Shown here: positions 8,029 to 43,288 of the stretch, one piece after another
How the letters are laid out: each line of letters begins with the position of its first letter
Position numbering within the stretch: the first letter of the stretch is position 1
Source of the DNA: a virus
IMG/VR virus record: IMGVR_UViG_3300044568_001950
Span: 1 to 60,357 of that record
Length of the DNA: 60,357 bases
Reading direction: 5' to 3' (one strand)
Program-made: the position numbers and the translations under genes
The notes under the pieces: model-generated
Told to the model about the DNA's origin: nothing
The model's database searches: none
What the model saw: the letters and a program-made list of their open reading frames with translations, nothing else

Positions 8029-8406
8029 ATGGCAAACCCAAATATTGTTAACGTCACGACGATTTACGGTAATTCGTCGAGCACGGCACTTTCCACTACC
8101 AGCGCTACGTCAATTGTTAGCAATGCTGCGGCCAGTGGCAAAGTGTTTAAGATCAATTCAATCGTTGTGGCCAACGTAGACGGAACGGCTGCTGCGGACG
8201 TTACGATTAACGTCTATTCTGCGGCTGCACTGGGCGGAACGGCTTTTGCAATTGCTTCGACCATCTCGGTTCCGGCAGATGCTTCGCTAATCGTTACGGA
8301 CAAGACCACGTCGTTCTATCTGCTTGAGAACCAGTCCATCGGTGCTATTGCTGGTGCGGCCAACGACCTCGTTGTCACCGCAAGCTGGGAAGAGATAAAC
8401 TCGTAA
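8029..8406 (+). CDS. Small beta-sandwich tail protein
   Basis: 125 residues, Ala/Thr/Val-rich, with FYLLENQSIGAIAG followed by a VTASWEEI end that is common in small phage tail-associated proteins. A good AAGGAG ribosome site precedes the ATG. Exact role unknown. Confidence 0.7.
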   Translation: MANPNIVNVTTIYGNSSSTALSTTSATSIVSNAAASGKVFKINSIVVANVDGTAAADVTINVYSAAALGGTAFAIASTISVPADASLIVTDKTTSFYLLENQSIGAIAGAANDLVVTASWEEINS

Positions 8407-8416
8407 GGGTTAAATC

Positions 8417-9307
8417 ATGAGCATGCGCTATAAAGGCGGAATTATCTCCGCCACTCCACCCACTACGTCCACGACAACGGCTACTGGCGTATGGACTCTT
8501 ATTCAGCAGATGCAGGCTCAAGCAGCAGGCAATTGGCCTTTGTCTGTTTTTGCCGTTGAGTGGATTGTTGTAGCTGGCGGTGGTGGGGGCGGTAATGGGC
8601 AAGCATCTGCTTATGATGGAAGTGGCGGTGGCGCAGGCGGCTATCGGTCATCTGTTATAGGCGAGATGTCCGGTGGTGGAGCTTCAGCAGAGGCTGTTAC
8701 ATACCCACAACTTGCAACATCATATACGGTTACTGTTGGTGGCGGTGGTGCATCACAAACAAACGGAAGTAATAGTGTTTTTTCCACTATTACTTCTACG
8801 GGGGGAGGAAGAGGCGCCAGTAATACATCCGCATCTTCTGGCGGGTCTGGTGGTGGAGGTTTAGGAGCCGGAACTACTGGACAGGGATATGCGGGCGGAG
8901 CGTCTGGTGGCGGTGGTGCCGGAGAGGTCGGAAATACGGACGGGGGTAATGAAGGCGGTGATGGCGTTTCTTCTTCAATCACTGGAAGTGCCACGTTCAG
9001 GGCTGGCGGCGGCGGTGGTGGTCAAGCCAGTGGAAGTAATGCTGGCGGTGCTGGTGGTGGTGGTGCTGGCAACCAAAACGGAGCCGGAAGCCCAGGAGAC
9101 CCAAACACTGGCGGTGGTGGTGGCGGCGCAAGAAATGCTGGTGGCGGCGGCGGCGGTGCTGGCGGTTCTGGCGTTGTTATCTTGAAATATCCCTCTGCCC
9201 GTACTATCTCCAACCCTGGCGGTGGGCTGACTTATTCAACCTCAACTTCTGGCGCTTTCAAAATAACAACTTTTACTGCTGGAACTGGCAGCATTCAATT
9301 TTCATAG
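8417..9307 (+). CDS. Receptor-binding protein with glycine-rich distal domain
   Basis: 296 residues. Residues 1-45 (MSMRYKGGIIS...GVWTL...WPLSV) form a module shared with the 9685 product. From about residue 50 (WIVVAGGGGGG) the chain is dominated by Gly runs separated by short polar segments and closes with SGVVILKYPS; this is the glycine-rich sheet/PGII-type domain used by gp38-like adhesins and many tail fibre tips. The shared anchor with a different distal part suggests alternative host-recognition proteins on one attachment site. The many antisense Pro-rich frames here are shadows of the Gly codons. Confidence 0.8.
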   Translation: MSMRYKGGIISATPPTTSTTTATGVWTLIQQMQAQAAGNWPLSVFAVEWIVVAGGGGGGNGQASAYDGSGGGAGGYRSSVIGEMSGGGASAEAVTYPQLATSYTVTVGGGGASQTNGSNSVFSTITSTGGGRGASNTSASSGGSGGGGLGAGTTGQGYAGGASGGGGAGEVGNTDGGNEGGDGVSSSITGSATFRAGGGGGGQASGSNAGGAGGGGAGNQNGAGSPGDPNTGGGGGGARNAGGGGGGAGGSGVVILKYPSARTISNPGGGLTYSTSTSGAFKITTFTAGTGSIQFS

Positions 9308-32734: not shown

Positions 32735-34267
32735 ATGCCGGAAGTAGATATCGCACGTTTTAAACAAATTTTTGCAGGTCTTGATATTGCGTATGGAACA
32801 TACAAGATTGAAAAGGAACGGCAAGATGGAAAGCAAAACGGGAAGGCCTCAATCGTCAGGCAACCTCCTACGGATGACCTATGGGTCAAGCATCTTAAGG
32901 GAACCGAGCCTAGCCTCGGGATCATACCGATTCGTGCCGACAATAGCTGCACCTGGGGTTGTATCGATATTGATATGTACCCCATCGATCACGTATCTAT
33001 CATCAAGAAAATTAGAAAGCTCGAACTCCCGCTAGTACCCTTCCGTTCAAAATCCGGTGGCATGCATGTGTTCATGTTTGCAAGAGAACCAGTCACCGCA
33101 ACCTACATGCAAAAGCACCTGAAGCTTTTTGCAGCGTACCTCGGCTATTCGGGTTCAGAGATTTTTCCTAAGCAAACGGAGATTTTGGTTGACCGTGGTG
33201 ACACGGGAAACTTCTTAAACCTCCCATACTTTGGAGGAGACAATGGCACACGCTATGCGTACAAAGATGACGGCTCTGCGGCCACACTCGAGGAGTTTTA
33301 TTCACTTTACGAAACCTATGCCGTTACTGAAGAAACCGTCATCAAAGAACCGAGTAACGTTGCGACTACTCCGGACCTCGCTGACGGTCCTCCGTGCCTA
33401 CAAGTTCTTTGTTCCCAAGGATTTCCGGAAGGCACACGTAATAACGGACTTTTCAACATCGGAGTTTTTCTCCGCAAAGCTAAGCCGGATACGTGGGAGA
33501 ACGAACTTATGGTTTATAACCAAAAGTACATGTCGCCGCCCCTTCCCCTTAATGAGATCACGCTTGTCTCTAAACAACTGAAAAAGAAAGAATATGGTTA
33601 TAAGTGCAAAGATTCGCCGATTAACGGACACTGTAACGCATCGTTATGTAAGACTCGGAAATTTGGTATCGGTCAGTCTAACGATATGCCAAGTATCTCG
33701 GCCCTCTCTAAGTATGCTTCTGATCCCCCGCTTTGGTTTGTTGATGTGGATGGGCATCGCCTGGAACTTACGACAGAGGAACTCCAACAACAGGCTAAGT
33801 TTCAAGTTGTATGTATGAGCAAAGTCAACGTCATGCCGCCGACGTTGAAAAGACAGGAATGGGAGGGGCTGCTCAATGGGCTTCTTAAACAGATGGTTGA
33901 GACGCAGGCAATTACAGAAGCGCCTGAGGATACTTCCAGCGACGGGCGATTCTATGATCTTTTGGAAGAGTTTTGCACTCACCTCCAGACTGCCATGGAT
34001 CGCGAAGAGATTCTTATGGGCCGTCCTTGGACTCACGAAGAAGAGAAGGTAACCTACTTCCGCATCAAAGATTTAGAGAACTTTCTTCAGCGCAACAAGT
34101 TCAACATGACTACGGTCAAGATTGCACAGCGTTTGCGGAACTTGCAGGGTAGCCCACATTCGATCACCGTTAAGAATCGTACGGTACGCACCTGGCGCAT
34201 CCCAGCTTACGAGAAACAGGACTCACCGTTTGATGCCACGATGCCTTCTTCGGGATCTCCATTTTGA
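32735..34267 (+). CDS. Archaeo-eukaryotic-type primase (AEP/PrimPol)
   Basis: 510 residues. The AEP catalytic signature is visible: CIDIDMY with Asp78 and Asp80, KSGGMH with His111, then EIFPKQTEI and GNFLNLPYF (159-166). These features match phage and TOTE-type primases that start DNA synthesis. The C-terminal half may be a helical primase accessory domain and includes a Cys-containing patch (KCKDSPINGHCNASLCK). It ends SGSPF, similar to the ssDNA-binding protein's APF end. TTGA overlap with the helicase gene. Confidence 0.8.
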   Translation: MPEVDIARFKQIFAGLDIAYGTYKIEKERQDGKQNGKASIVRQPPTDDLWVKHLKGTEPSLGIIPIRADNSCTWGCIDIDMYPIDHVSIIKKIRKLELPLVPFRSKSGGMHVFMFAREPVTATYMQKHLKLFAAYLGYSGSEIFPKQTEILVDRGDTGNFLNLPYFGGDNGTRYAYKDDGSAATLEEFYSLYETYAVTEETVIKEPSNVATTPDLADGPPCLQVLCSQGFPEGTRNNGLFNIGVFLRKAKPDTWENELMVYNQKYMSPPLPLNEITLVSKQLKKKEYGYKCKDSPINGHCNASLCKTRKFGIGQSNDMPSISALSKYASDPPLWFVDVDGHRLELTTEELQQQAKFQVVCMSKVNVMPPTLKRQEWEGLLNGLLKQMVETQAITEAPEDTSSDGRFYDLLEEFCTHLQTAMDREEILMGRPWTHEEEKVTYFRIKDLENFLQRNKFNMTTVKIAQRLRNLQGSPHSITVKNRTVRTWRIPAYEKQDSPFDATMPSSGSPF

Positions 34268-41021: not shown

Positions 41022-41313
41022 GGTATGGCATGCCAAGATAAGGCATGGTCAGGTAGTGTAGGGCGCGGTTCGGTGTGGTTAGGTGCGGTTAGGCTAGGCG
41101 CGGCACGGCTCGGCAATGTTCGGCAGGGCTAGGTTGGGTATGGTGAGAAGTGGTCCGGTATGGTGAGGTATGGGTTTCTTAATGGAGCTTGGTTGGGTTT
41201 GGCAGGATTGGCCCCGGTGAGGTGTGGCTAGGCTTCATTAAGAAGCCCGTAAGGGCTTTATCTGGAAGGGCAGGGCGGGGCATTGTCTGGCTAGGTCCGG
41301 TGCGGTACGGTTC
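41022..41313 (+). repeat. Degenerate GGYNN pentamer array (non-coding)
   Basis: From 41022 to 41171 there are 30 consecutive 5-base units in one register; 25 of them start GG followed by C or T, while bases 4 and 5 vary freely. A second block (41191-41233, about 9 units) and a third (41264-41313, 10 units) follow in shifted registers, separated by hairpin arms. A 5-base period is incompatible with codons, so the signal is in DNA or RNA structure. On the + strand it gives runs of GG every 5 bases, able in principle to form two-tier G-quadruplexes. Confidence 0.85.
41172..41258 (+). promoter_or_regulatory. Mutually exclusive hairpins (attenuator-like)
   Basis: GGGTTTCTTAATG (41172-41184) pairs with CATTAAGAAGCCC (41236-41248) over 13 positions, one of them G-U, enclosing the second pentamer block in a 51-nt loop. 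The same AAGCCC (41243-41248) can instead pair with GGGCTT (41253-41258) in a tight GTAA-loop hairpin. The two folds exclude each other, the usual layout of an attenuator or riboswitch expression platform. Confidence 0.6.
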
Positions 41314-41331
41314 CCCACGTTGGGGGTTTTT
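41313..41331 (+). terminator. Terminator in the leader of the 41350 gene
   Basis: CCCCA (41313-41317), loop CGT, TGGGG, then GTTTTT. It ends only about 5 bases before the AGGAG ribosome site of the gene at 41350, so that gene is expressed only if this signal is bypassed or opened. Confidence 0.65.
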
Positions 41332-41349: not shown

Positions 41350-41967
41350 ATGGCTAAGTCCAATTTGAAAGTCGTTAGTGATGTAACCAATGGCGGCAAG
41401 AGCGCCATTGAACAGGGTTTCCCTTATGCTGTAGCTGTACGGGCTCAAGGCGCGGCGGATCTGTTGTTCCACCGTTGGAACTGCGAGTCAGTCGATGCGA
41501 AGTCCAAGGCCGCCAAGAACTCAGCGGCCAAGAAGACAGATGACATCGAGTCCTACGTTTGGAGAAACGAAAAAGATGAACTCTGTATCCCAGGGGAGTA
41601 TTTTAGGCAGTCCATTATCCATGCTGCGAAATTTAAGCAAGACCCCCGTTCTCCGCGTAAATCCGCGATGGATCTCTTCAAAGCCGGGGTCGTTTCACTT
41701 ACTCAGTTGGCGTCACTTGGTAGCGATGAGTGGGACTACCTTGACACTCGTCGGGTCACAGTACAGCGAGCCGGAGTTAATCGAACAAGACCTGCCATGC
41801 GCATCGGATGGGAAGTGGATATACAGTTTCAAATACTCACCCCTGAGTATATCGACCCCCACCTTTTTCAAGACGTACTGAACACGGCAGGCCGCCTCGT
41901 AGGCGTTGGAGACTTCCGCCCAACGTACGGACGTTTTAACATCACAAACTTTGAGGTGCTCTCATGA
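41350..41967 (+). CDS. Unknown protein with GVGDFRPTYGRF end
   Basis: 205 residues from ATG 41350 (TATAGGAGAAAG upstream). Contains LCIPGEYFRQSIIHAAKFKQ, then SPRKSAMDLFKAGVV, and ends RLVGVGDFRPTYGRFNITNF. I know this as a phage protein of unknown function; the Gly-rich GxGDFRPxxGRF end resembles RAMP/Cas7-type RNA-binding proteins, a loose similarity only. It is the gene controlled by the GGYNN leader. ATGA overlap with the next gene. Confidence 0.75.
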   Translation: MAKSNLKVVSDVTNGGKSAIEQGFPYAVAVRAQGAADLLFHRWNCESVDAKSKAAKNSAAKKTDDIESYVWRNEKDELCIPGEYFRQSIIHAAKFKQDPRSPRKSAMDLFKAGVVSLTQLASLGSDEWDYLDTRRVTVQRAGVNRTRPAMRIGWEVDIQFQILTPEYIDPHLFQDVLNTAGRLVGVGDFRPTYGRFNITNFEVLS

Positions 41968-42386
41968 TTAAAAAGCCTGCCAAGAAAGCGAAAGGTAAGC
42001 CCCTATCCCGTACGGTAAAGCGTACGCAAAAAAGTGCGGTTAAGAAGGCGAAAGGTAAGCCCCTATCCCGTACGGTAAAGCGTACGGTCAAGAAGGAGAA
42101 ACTTACGCCGCTGGCCCAGCTCGTTGCAAAGTGGGACAAGGACCAAGGGCCACTGCCCAGTCTTTACGACACGGCCACCCAGCTTGATGACGTGGTCACC
42201 ACGCTCACCAATATCCAGCACCTGATGGACTCCGCCCTGAATGACTGCGTGGACCTCACCAACAACGACCGCGCGCTTTCCTTACTCTACCTTGCGCACG
42301 GGATGGTTAAGGGAGTGATCGATAAGACCGACCCGCTAATCTCGGACCTTTACCGCATCAACCGGGCCACGTTGGACCTAAAGTAA
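41964..42386 (+). CDS. Protein with basic tandem repeat N-terminus
   Basis: 140 residues. Residues about 6-42 are a duplicated Lys-rich unit (KKAKGKPLSRTVKRT twice, 20 residues apart) followed by VKKEK, then a helical acidic-neutral domain. The basic arm resembles histone H1-like nucleic-acid-binding tails. It may act with the 41350 protein, to which it is ATGA-coupled. Ends tail to tail with the HslV-like gene, overlapping 9 bases. Confidence 0.7.
   Translation: MIKKPAKKAKGKPLSRTVKRTQKSAVKKAKGKPLSRTVKRTVKKEKLTPLAQLVAKWDKDQGPLPSLYDTATQLDDVVTTLTNIQHLMDSALNDCVDLTNNDRALSLLYLAHGMVKGVIDKTDPLISDLYRINRATLDLK
41982..42086 (+). repeat. 45-bp direct repeat, 60-bp period, within the 41964 gene
   Basis: 41982-42026 and 42042-42086 differ by one base. 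Near-identity at the DNA level, including synonymous positions, indicates a recent duplication. Confidence 0.9.
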
Positions 42387-42842
42387 GGATTTTTTCTTAC
42401 GCTTTGGAGCCGGGTGTAATGGCTCCAGGGACATACAGTCGATAGGACCGCCCGTAAGGGGGTCGTAGAGGGACGCAATCTCTATGGCCTCCTTGGGGCT
42501 CTTGCCCAAGTGCAAGGCCGCTATGGCGTATCCTGAGCCAGTCCCGATGGCATAGAAGTCGTTTTTGATCCTCGCAGGGATCAAAGTGCTCTCGTAGACC
42601 CAAATCCCGTCCCGCCGAAGCTCCAACATCTCGATATCACAGTCCTCATCCAACTCGTCGCCCTCTTTGGGGTGCTCGAGCATGCTAAAGGCCCCCAAGA
42701 TATCCTTCCAGTCGCCCGCCGCCCCGTAGATCGATTCTCGGCCCCTACGGAGCTTTTCCACAAAGTACTTGATGTCATCCCCACTGACTTGAGAGTCGGC
42801 GGCAATCTCGAGCGTTGAGAACCTGGCGGCGATCGTGGTCAT
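42378..42842 (-). CDS. HslV/proteasome-like Ntn hydrolase
   Basis: 154 residues from ATG 42842 (GGAAGAG upstream); an upstream in-frame start at 42926 lies inside the HNH gene. The N-terminus MTTIAARFSTLEIAADSQVS aligns with HslV: Thr2 would be the catalytic Thr1 after Met removal, Asp16 matches HslV Asp17 and Lys30 in VEKLRR matches Lys33 in VKKVRR. AAGDWKDI and FYAIGTGSGYAIAALHLGKS match the HslV glycine regions. It is shorter than HslV (about 175) and no HslU-type ATPase is present, so it may use host HslU or act alone. Coupled to the HNH gene by 4 bases. Confidence 0.75.
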   Translation of the reverse strand: MTTIAARFSTLEIAADSQVSGDDIKYFVEKLRRGRESIYGAAGDWKDILGAFSMLEHPKEGDELDEDCDIEMLELRRDGIWVYESTLIPARIKNDFYAIGTGSGYAIAALHLGKSPKEAIEIASLYDPLTGGPIDCMSLEPLHPAPKRKKKSLL

Positions 42843-43222
42843 AGCTCTTCCTTTTGCATGCTCCTGTTGTACGCCCGAATGGCCTGATGTTCGTTGAAAT
42901 GCTCTATCCGATGGCAGTTGGCACACAAGACCTCACACTTCTTGACTTCCTCGTACGCCTGCGAAAAGCAGTTGTCCATCACCAACCGATTCACGTCCTT
43001 CTTGGTCCCGTCCCGCGTGGGGTGGTGGAAGTCAATAATCGCCGGGTGCGACGCACCACAACGCGAACAAACTAGAGTGCTCTTATATTCCAACCACTTG
43101 GCACGGTTCTTTCTGCGTAAAGCATTCACCGCGTCTTGAATGACACGCTTATTGTTCTCGTAGTACTTCTTTCCGTATTCACGGTTCTTAACCCGCCTGA
43201 CCTCAGGATCCTTGTACGGCAT
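42839..43222 (-). CDS. HNH endonuclease
   Basis: 127 residues from ATG 43222 (GGGGAGT upstream); a longer form from 43273 lacks a ribosome site. A basic helical N-terminus (MPYKDPEVRRVKNREYGKKY) precedes the HNH core: CSRCG, IIDFHHP, then CEVLCANCHRIEH, with two CxxC zinc pairs and the HH/H catalytic residues. It could be a homing nuclease or a packaging/defence nuclease; placement beside the HslV-like gene rather than the terminase suggests the former or an early role. Confidence 0.85.
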   Translation of the reverse strand: MPYKDPEVRRVKNREYGKKYYENNKRVIQDAVNALRRKNRAKWLEYKSTLVCSRCGASHPAIIDFHHPTRDGTKKDVNRLVMDNCFSQAYEEVKKCEVLCANCHRIEHFNEHQAIRAYNRSMQKEEL

Positions 43223-43288
43223 GACACTCCCCATTGAATTGGTGTGGGGGACTTGGATAACCCCAATCGTCAAAAAAGGGCGCCCCCA

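Follow-up and report, generated by a model that had tools for sequence, protein, structure and literature searches.

A degenerate GGYNN array beside a RAMP-fold gene in a 60-kb viral sequence, very probably the guide-RNA region of a phage VIPR system

VIPR is a phage-encoded system described in 2026 (PMC13142463; bioRxiv 2026.04.26.720920) that comprises an ancestral RAMP protein, Vipr, and vrRNAs built of alternating GGY and NN elements with a 3' tail. According to the main text of that paper the vrRNA region adjoins the vipr gene, recognition of double-stranded DNA goes through the NN pairs and skips one target base between pairs, and the complex represses its target, with competing phages, satellites and prophages as the main natural targets. 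Expression of vrRNA, the Vipr-vrRNA complex, recognition with a 1-nt skip, repression and phage restriction are reported there as demonstrated for the SUSP1 and P. fulva systems (PMC13142463). The same text gives 9-16 repeats per vrRNA, also mentions staggered arrays with overlapping vrRNAs, distinguishes seven types with SUSP1 as type II, and places the skipped target bases of the published targets at third codon positions (PMC13142463). A search of the literature for the system by its own terms brought up no VIPR paper besides this one.

Here we describe an array of degenerate pentamers at positions 41022-41313 of a viral sequence of 60,357 nucleotides (IMG/VR record IMGVR_UViG_3300044568_001950, positions 1 to 60,357), referred to as the window, together with the adjoining genes, related loci and possible targets. 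We are close to certain that the array is the vrRNA (guide-RNA) region of a phage VIPR system. The locus is a member of a kind already described in 2026, VIPR being a simpler relative of CRISPR. The window and its relatives provide the array itself, the homology and fold of the Vipr protein, the linkage of the two across many phages and a natural guide-target pair within the clade; for the window's particular guides we infer transcription, assembly and function. The array would be transcribed into one or more vrRNAs, which Vipr subunits from the adjoining downstream gene would coat, holding them by the GGY triplets. The NN pairs, left exposed, would then recognise double-stranded DNA, leaving a single target base unread between one pair and the next; once bound, the complex would repress transcription there, the usual target lying in a competing phage, satellite or prophage.

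Array and locus anatomy

The array consists of 49 pentamers in three register blocks, 40 of which begin with GGY. The features of the locus, all on the plus strand, are as follows.

41022..41171, plus strand: putative vrRNA block 1, 30 in-register GGYNN units, 25 of them GGY
41169..41251, plus strand: long stem enclosing block 2, with 20-nt arms at 41169-41188 and 41232-41251
41191..41235, plus strand: putative vrRNA block 2, nine units, seven of them GGY, inside the long stem
41244..41259, plus strand: short hairpin AAGCCC-gtaa-GGGCTT where block 2 ends, read directly from the sequence
41264..41313, plus strand: putative vrRNA block 3, ten units, eight of them GGY
41312..41331, plus strand: intrinsic-terminator-like hairpin TCCCC-ACGTT-GGGGG-TTTTT between array and vipr, conserved in phage DSL-LC04
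41350..41967, plus strand: vipr, encoding a 205-aa protein of predicted RAMP fold (P0001; PHROG 4652) with the glycine-rich loop VGVGDFRPTYGRF
41964..42386, plus strand: candidate accessory gene (vap), 140 aa, with the repeated basic motif KKAKGKPLSRTVKRT; its start overlaps the vipr stop

A first-pass annotation, made from the letters of this DNA, had reported 30 consecutive units at 41022-41171 with 25 of GG plus pyrimidine and two smaller blocks behind them, which was borne out exactly. Outside the array the best 30-unit phase in the 60-kb window holds 7 GGY on the plus and 6 on the minus strand. Entropy at pentamer positions 1 to 5 of the array is 0.33, 0.57, 1.18, 1.87 and 1.99 bits; positions 4 and 5 (NN) are nearly random. 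In 1,000 dinucleotide-preserving shuffles of the array region, the comparison with shuffled controls that the annotation had proposed for the 5-base period, the best phase count had a mean of 5.9 and a maximum of 11 versus 25 observed, and GGY pairs at lag 5 had a mean of 2.2 and a maximum of 8 versus 31 observed. The claim of the annotation that the array is non-coding and that the GG register is under selection, rather than left by recent tandem duplication, was upheld. Shuffles never match the array and comparable arrays are common in phages (see below), so neither of the two outcomes that the annotation had held to speak against its reading was found. It had known no named element of this kind, but the array corresponds to one, the vrRNAs of VIPR systems (PMC13142463). 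Among the roles it had offered, an RNA scaffold comes closest; the variable NN bases are, in the published system, information and not slack.

With 30, 9 and 10 units against the 9-16 published per vrRNA, block 1 lies above the range and therefore probably represents more than one guide, adjoining or overlapping. It ends in GGTAT-GGG, like the SUSP1-like arrays of phage TP1. The block ends are formed by different hairpins, which have counterparts in DSL-LC04, and one evident invariant 3' tail common to all blocks was not found. In block 1 the window and DSL-LC04 share most NN pairs; two deletions, one of 20 nt (4 units) and one of 5 nt (1 unit) close to the 3' end, and a shift of 1 nt set them apart. 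The NN pairs of blocks 2 and 3 differ. The stem around block 2 is kept in DSL-LC04 with paired changes (TTCTTAATG/CATTAAGAA versus TTCTTAGTG/CACTAAGAA), and stretches including it fold better than shuffles (z -3.7 and -5.5); the two sequences suggest that this stem is conserved. The short hairpin at 41244..41259, whose DSL-LC04 counterpart has different bases, may serve as a tail or terminator, alternative to the long stem. Scans against Rfam were negative for the window (gathering scan), for eight loci in or near the clade and for the leader (E up to 1), so that no hammerhead ribozyme was seen.

The vipr gene starts 36 nt behind the array. The 140-aa product of the candidate vap gene has no Pfam match, and among 12 records searched a relative occurs only in DSL-LC04 (63%). 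Right after the VIPR locus, on the minus strand (42378-43273), lie genes for an HslV-like peptidase and an HNH endonuclease, which are also present in DSL-LC04. Elsewhere in the window a primase-like gene (32735-34267) that matches the archaeo-eukaryotic primase domain of TOTE conflict systems adjoins genes for a UvrD-like helicase and a family A DNA polymerase.

The Vipr protein and related loci

P0001 is a Vipr homologue: alone it matches PDB entry 36pp, 'SUSP1 Vipr protein', in phmmer with E = 2.2e-5, and the family profile does so with E = 1.8e-40, both matches being by sequence. Each of the 61 family members aligned matches PHROG 4652, a group of unknown function, and no Pfam family was found above the cut-off for the Vipr protein. 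The family is diverse, with a mean column identity of 21%, and shares a conserved C-terminal loop of consensus VGxGDxRP...GRF; the glycine-rich loop (G181, G185, R190, G194) is invariant or nearly so. An AlphaFold model built on the family alignment (pLDDT 91.2) has its best solved matches among Cas7-type RAMPs, type VII and type III Csm3 (Foldseek E from 5.6e-7; Z up to 13.0 over about 160 residues against Cas7-type subunits). The predicted fold is thus of the RAMP (RRM-type) kind with a glycine-rich loop, and this support is independent of the name Vipr. The vipr gene of DSL-LC04 (OR003939.1, locus 8029-8646; L121 in our set) carries the annotation helix-turn-helix transcriptional regulator, which is unsupported in view of the RAMP fold predicted for its near-identical homologue in the window.

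A scan of viral DNA with a pattern of eight GGYNN units, a search of the kind proposed in the first-pass annotation, returned at least 120 stretches, so that comparable arrays are common in phages. In most of the matches listed the arrays are degenerate and run to tens or hundreds of units, often split into several register blocks. Clustering of the genes beside them gave a single family of some 200 residues, the protein encoded at 41350-41967 among its members. By iterated profile search the Vipr family was found in 89 of 122 sequences (the 120 array-pattern matches listed, DSL-LC04 and the window); this count is used here, the one from clustering (107 proteins, 73 loci) being inflated by reading frames that run into the arrays. 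The GGYNN pattern alone is accordingly an efficient finder of VIPR loci, with at least 120 loci of which nearly three quarters have a Vipr protein in their flanks. Two phages picked up by Vipr homology alone, Felixounavirus TP1 and Pseudomonas phage LESphi2, served as a positive control: both have the same arrays with similar ends beside vipr, four in TP1 (two before and two after the gene) and three in LESphi2 (all before the gene).

The nearest relative of the window Vipr is that of DSL-LC04 (96.6% identical). In the phylogenetic tree these two and the proteins of six metagenomic phages make up a single clade (support 100/99), separate from the group of locus L061. The SUSP1 group probably belongs with the latter and not with the window clade, since L061 finds Felixounavirus Vipr at 43% identity and P0001 found no Felixounavirus Vipr proteins at E 1e-3. 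Two loci of the window clade have very long arrays, far above 9-16 units per guide: 312 unit lengths on the minus strand of L069 (875-2432) and 142 units in a single run in L021 (6301-7010). The tail GGCATATTTTCAG is present twice in L069. A record named Staphylococcus phage SA1 (GU169904.1, 91703-92263) has a Vipr gene that matches at Felixounavirus level; the record is possibly chimeric or mislabelled.

The arrangement of the window locus, in which the array is followed by the terminator-like hairpin (41312-41331) and a ribosome-binding site directly before vipr, and which is kept in this order in DSL-LC04, would also fit an array that acts mainly in cis: Vipr would bind its own GGYNN leader and stop or allow read-through at the hairpin, a feedback of TRAP-like logic. 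We regard this as an improbable main role. Many loci, like TP1, have arrays downstream of vipr as well, which could not control the gene as a leader would; the NN bases vary freely instead of being fixed; and a guide function has been demonstrated for relatives, according to the main text of the VIPR paper (PMC13142463). Control in cis could exist as a secondary effect of a guide array.

Guide-target matches

NN pairs were taken from 433 array runs across all loci and searched against 1.1 Mb of collected sequence with 0-3 skipped bases. Low-complexity matches aside, two guides reached the top score of nine net matching pairs, each with one skipped base: one of L119 against the vipr gene of L069, and one of L059 against L051. 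The 11-pair core of the L119 guide (minus strand, 784-873; target L069:9255-9932) was compared with 94 family genes. With one skipped base it matches 21 of the 22 NN bases in L069, 20 in L021 and 19 in L035, 18 in the vipr genes of L003, DSL-LC04 and the window, and 17 in those of L073, L005 and L119 itself. Other skip lengths gave at most 16 of 22, apart from a value of 22 at skip 3, which is the guide itself. Translated, the matched stretch gives the conserved motif AAKKTDxIExYV, and inspection places the skipped bases at third codon (wobble) positions. This match supports the published non-contiguous code within the window clade, and L119 likely targets related VIPR systems, a case of VIPR against VIPR. 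A G-quadruplex, R-loop or phased DNA-binding array without a guide role, as the first-pass annotation had offered, would suit a G-rich strand with GG every five bases but leaves the linkage to a RAMP protein family, the near-random NN bases and the guide-target matches under one specific skip rule unexplained, and we give it hardly any credence; none of our observations called for G-quadruplexes, half-turn phasing of the DNA, recombination or replication from R-loops.

For blocks 1 and 2 of the window, targets were not found in viral contigs or bacterial genomes. Four exact nine-unit target patterns had no match in viral contigs; eight-unit seeds of block 1 had 11 matches in viral contigs and 48 in bacterial genomes, and those of block 2 had 4 in viral contigs, all with flanking units at chance level. 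With one mismatch allowed, 369 genomes held no match for block 2; of two windows taken from block 1, one had no match and the other a single one. Neither the window nor DSL-LC04 showed self-targeting above the level of permuted guides.

Block 3 gave a lead. Its NN pairs, including those of the preceding unit TATCT, read CT AG AG GG AT CT TA CC GC AC TC. From that unit onwards nine consecutive pairs (18 of 18 bases) match, with the 1-nt skip, the tRNA-Arg(CCU) gene from the anticodon loop to the D-loop. The nine-pair match occurs in three viral contigs, one of which holds a complete tRNA-Arg(CCU) gene. The other two, near-identical contigs (L143:3756-3904 and L144), hold a fragment of its 5' half about 126 bases from a tyrosine-integrase gene, probably an attachment site judging from this arrangement. 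Of 369 genomes from a single class, the one to which a Pseudomonas viridiflava genome belongs, 19 hold all 18 bases without mismatch, against none for the reversed control; the six loci retrieved are all tRNA-Arg(cct). Against 49 tRNAs, a set chosen after the match was known, block 3 reaches 18 and 3,000 permutations of block 3 and 430 other guides at most 12; the 430 other guides show no excess under any skip length.

Against a tRNA target stand the facts that matches to a conserved tRNA are one event, that the first matched unit is not GGY and that the last two units are mismatched. In the self-targeting test 1 of about 2,100 permuted guides reached 18 by chance, so that single 18-base matches need caution; when two guides were permuted another 800 times each, the highest value was 14. 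Judging from the number of eight-unit matches, we estimate that chance alone would give about one nine-unit match in the viral scans. Targets given in the main text of the VIPR paper are satellites, prophage regulators and other VIPR systems, with no tRNA gene or attachment site among them (PMC13142463). We therefore propose only tentatively that block 3 is directed at the tRNA-Arg(CCU) gene, and hence at an attachment site used by temperate phages; chance is the likelier origin of the match. If the target were true, Vipr at the tRNA site would block the integration of rivals or silence the tRNA gene, and the targets of VIPR would extend to tRNA genes or integration sites.

Comparison with known systems

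Raw sequence was enough to single out this guide-RNA array, whose system was first published in 2026, and the locus is placed in a clade away from the characterised SUSP1-like systems. Within its own clade, the match of the L119 guide to vipr genes independently supports both the non-contiguous code and conflict between VIPR systems. Features of note in the window member are the long block 1, the stem enclosing block 2 and the possible tRNA or attachment-site guide; apart from that possible guide, the window copy is an ordinary one of its kind.

Leaders bound by TRAP carry about 11 (G/U)AG triplets and serve in attenuation. The window array resembles them in its degenerate triplet, its period of about 5 nt and its position in a leader with a terminator, but this is a resemblance only: the protein is a different one, and the role of TRAP is attenuation, not guiding. 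With the Cas7 proteins of Class 1 CRISPR systems (Csm3, type VII Cas7) Vipr shares the predicted RAMP fold, the glycine-rich loop and membership of a family that coats guide RNA with a fixed nucleotide period. Unlike these systems, the locus has one small protein and no repeat-spacer guide, and its 5-nt units hold two informative bases, whereas Cas7 reads a continuous spacer interrupted at every sixth base.

The closest likeness is to the type II VIPR of SUSP1 as described in the main text, with GGY/NN arrays flanking a small phage RAMP gene, a homologous Vipr, a short second gene after vipr and hairpins after the repeat tracts. The window Vipr falls in a different clade with full support (100/99), probably separate from the SUSP1 group. 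Set against the VIPR loci of that text, block 1 has 30 continuous units versus 9-16, block 2 lies inside a long stem, and the second gene has its one relative, among the 12 records searched, in DSL-LC04.
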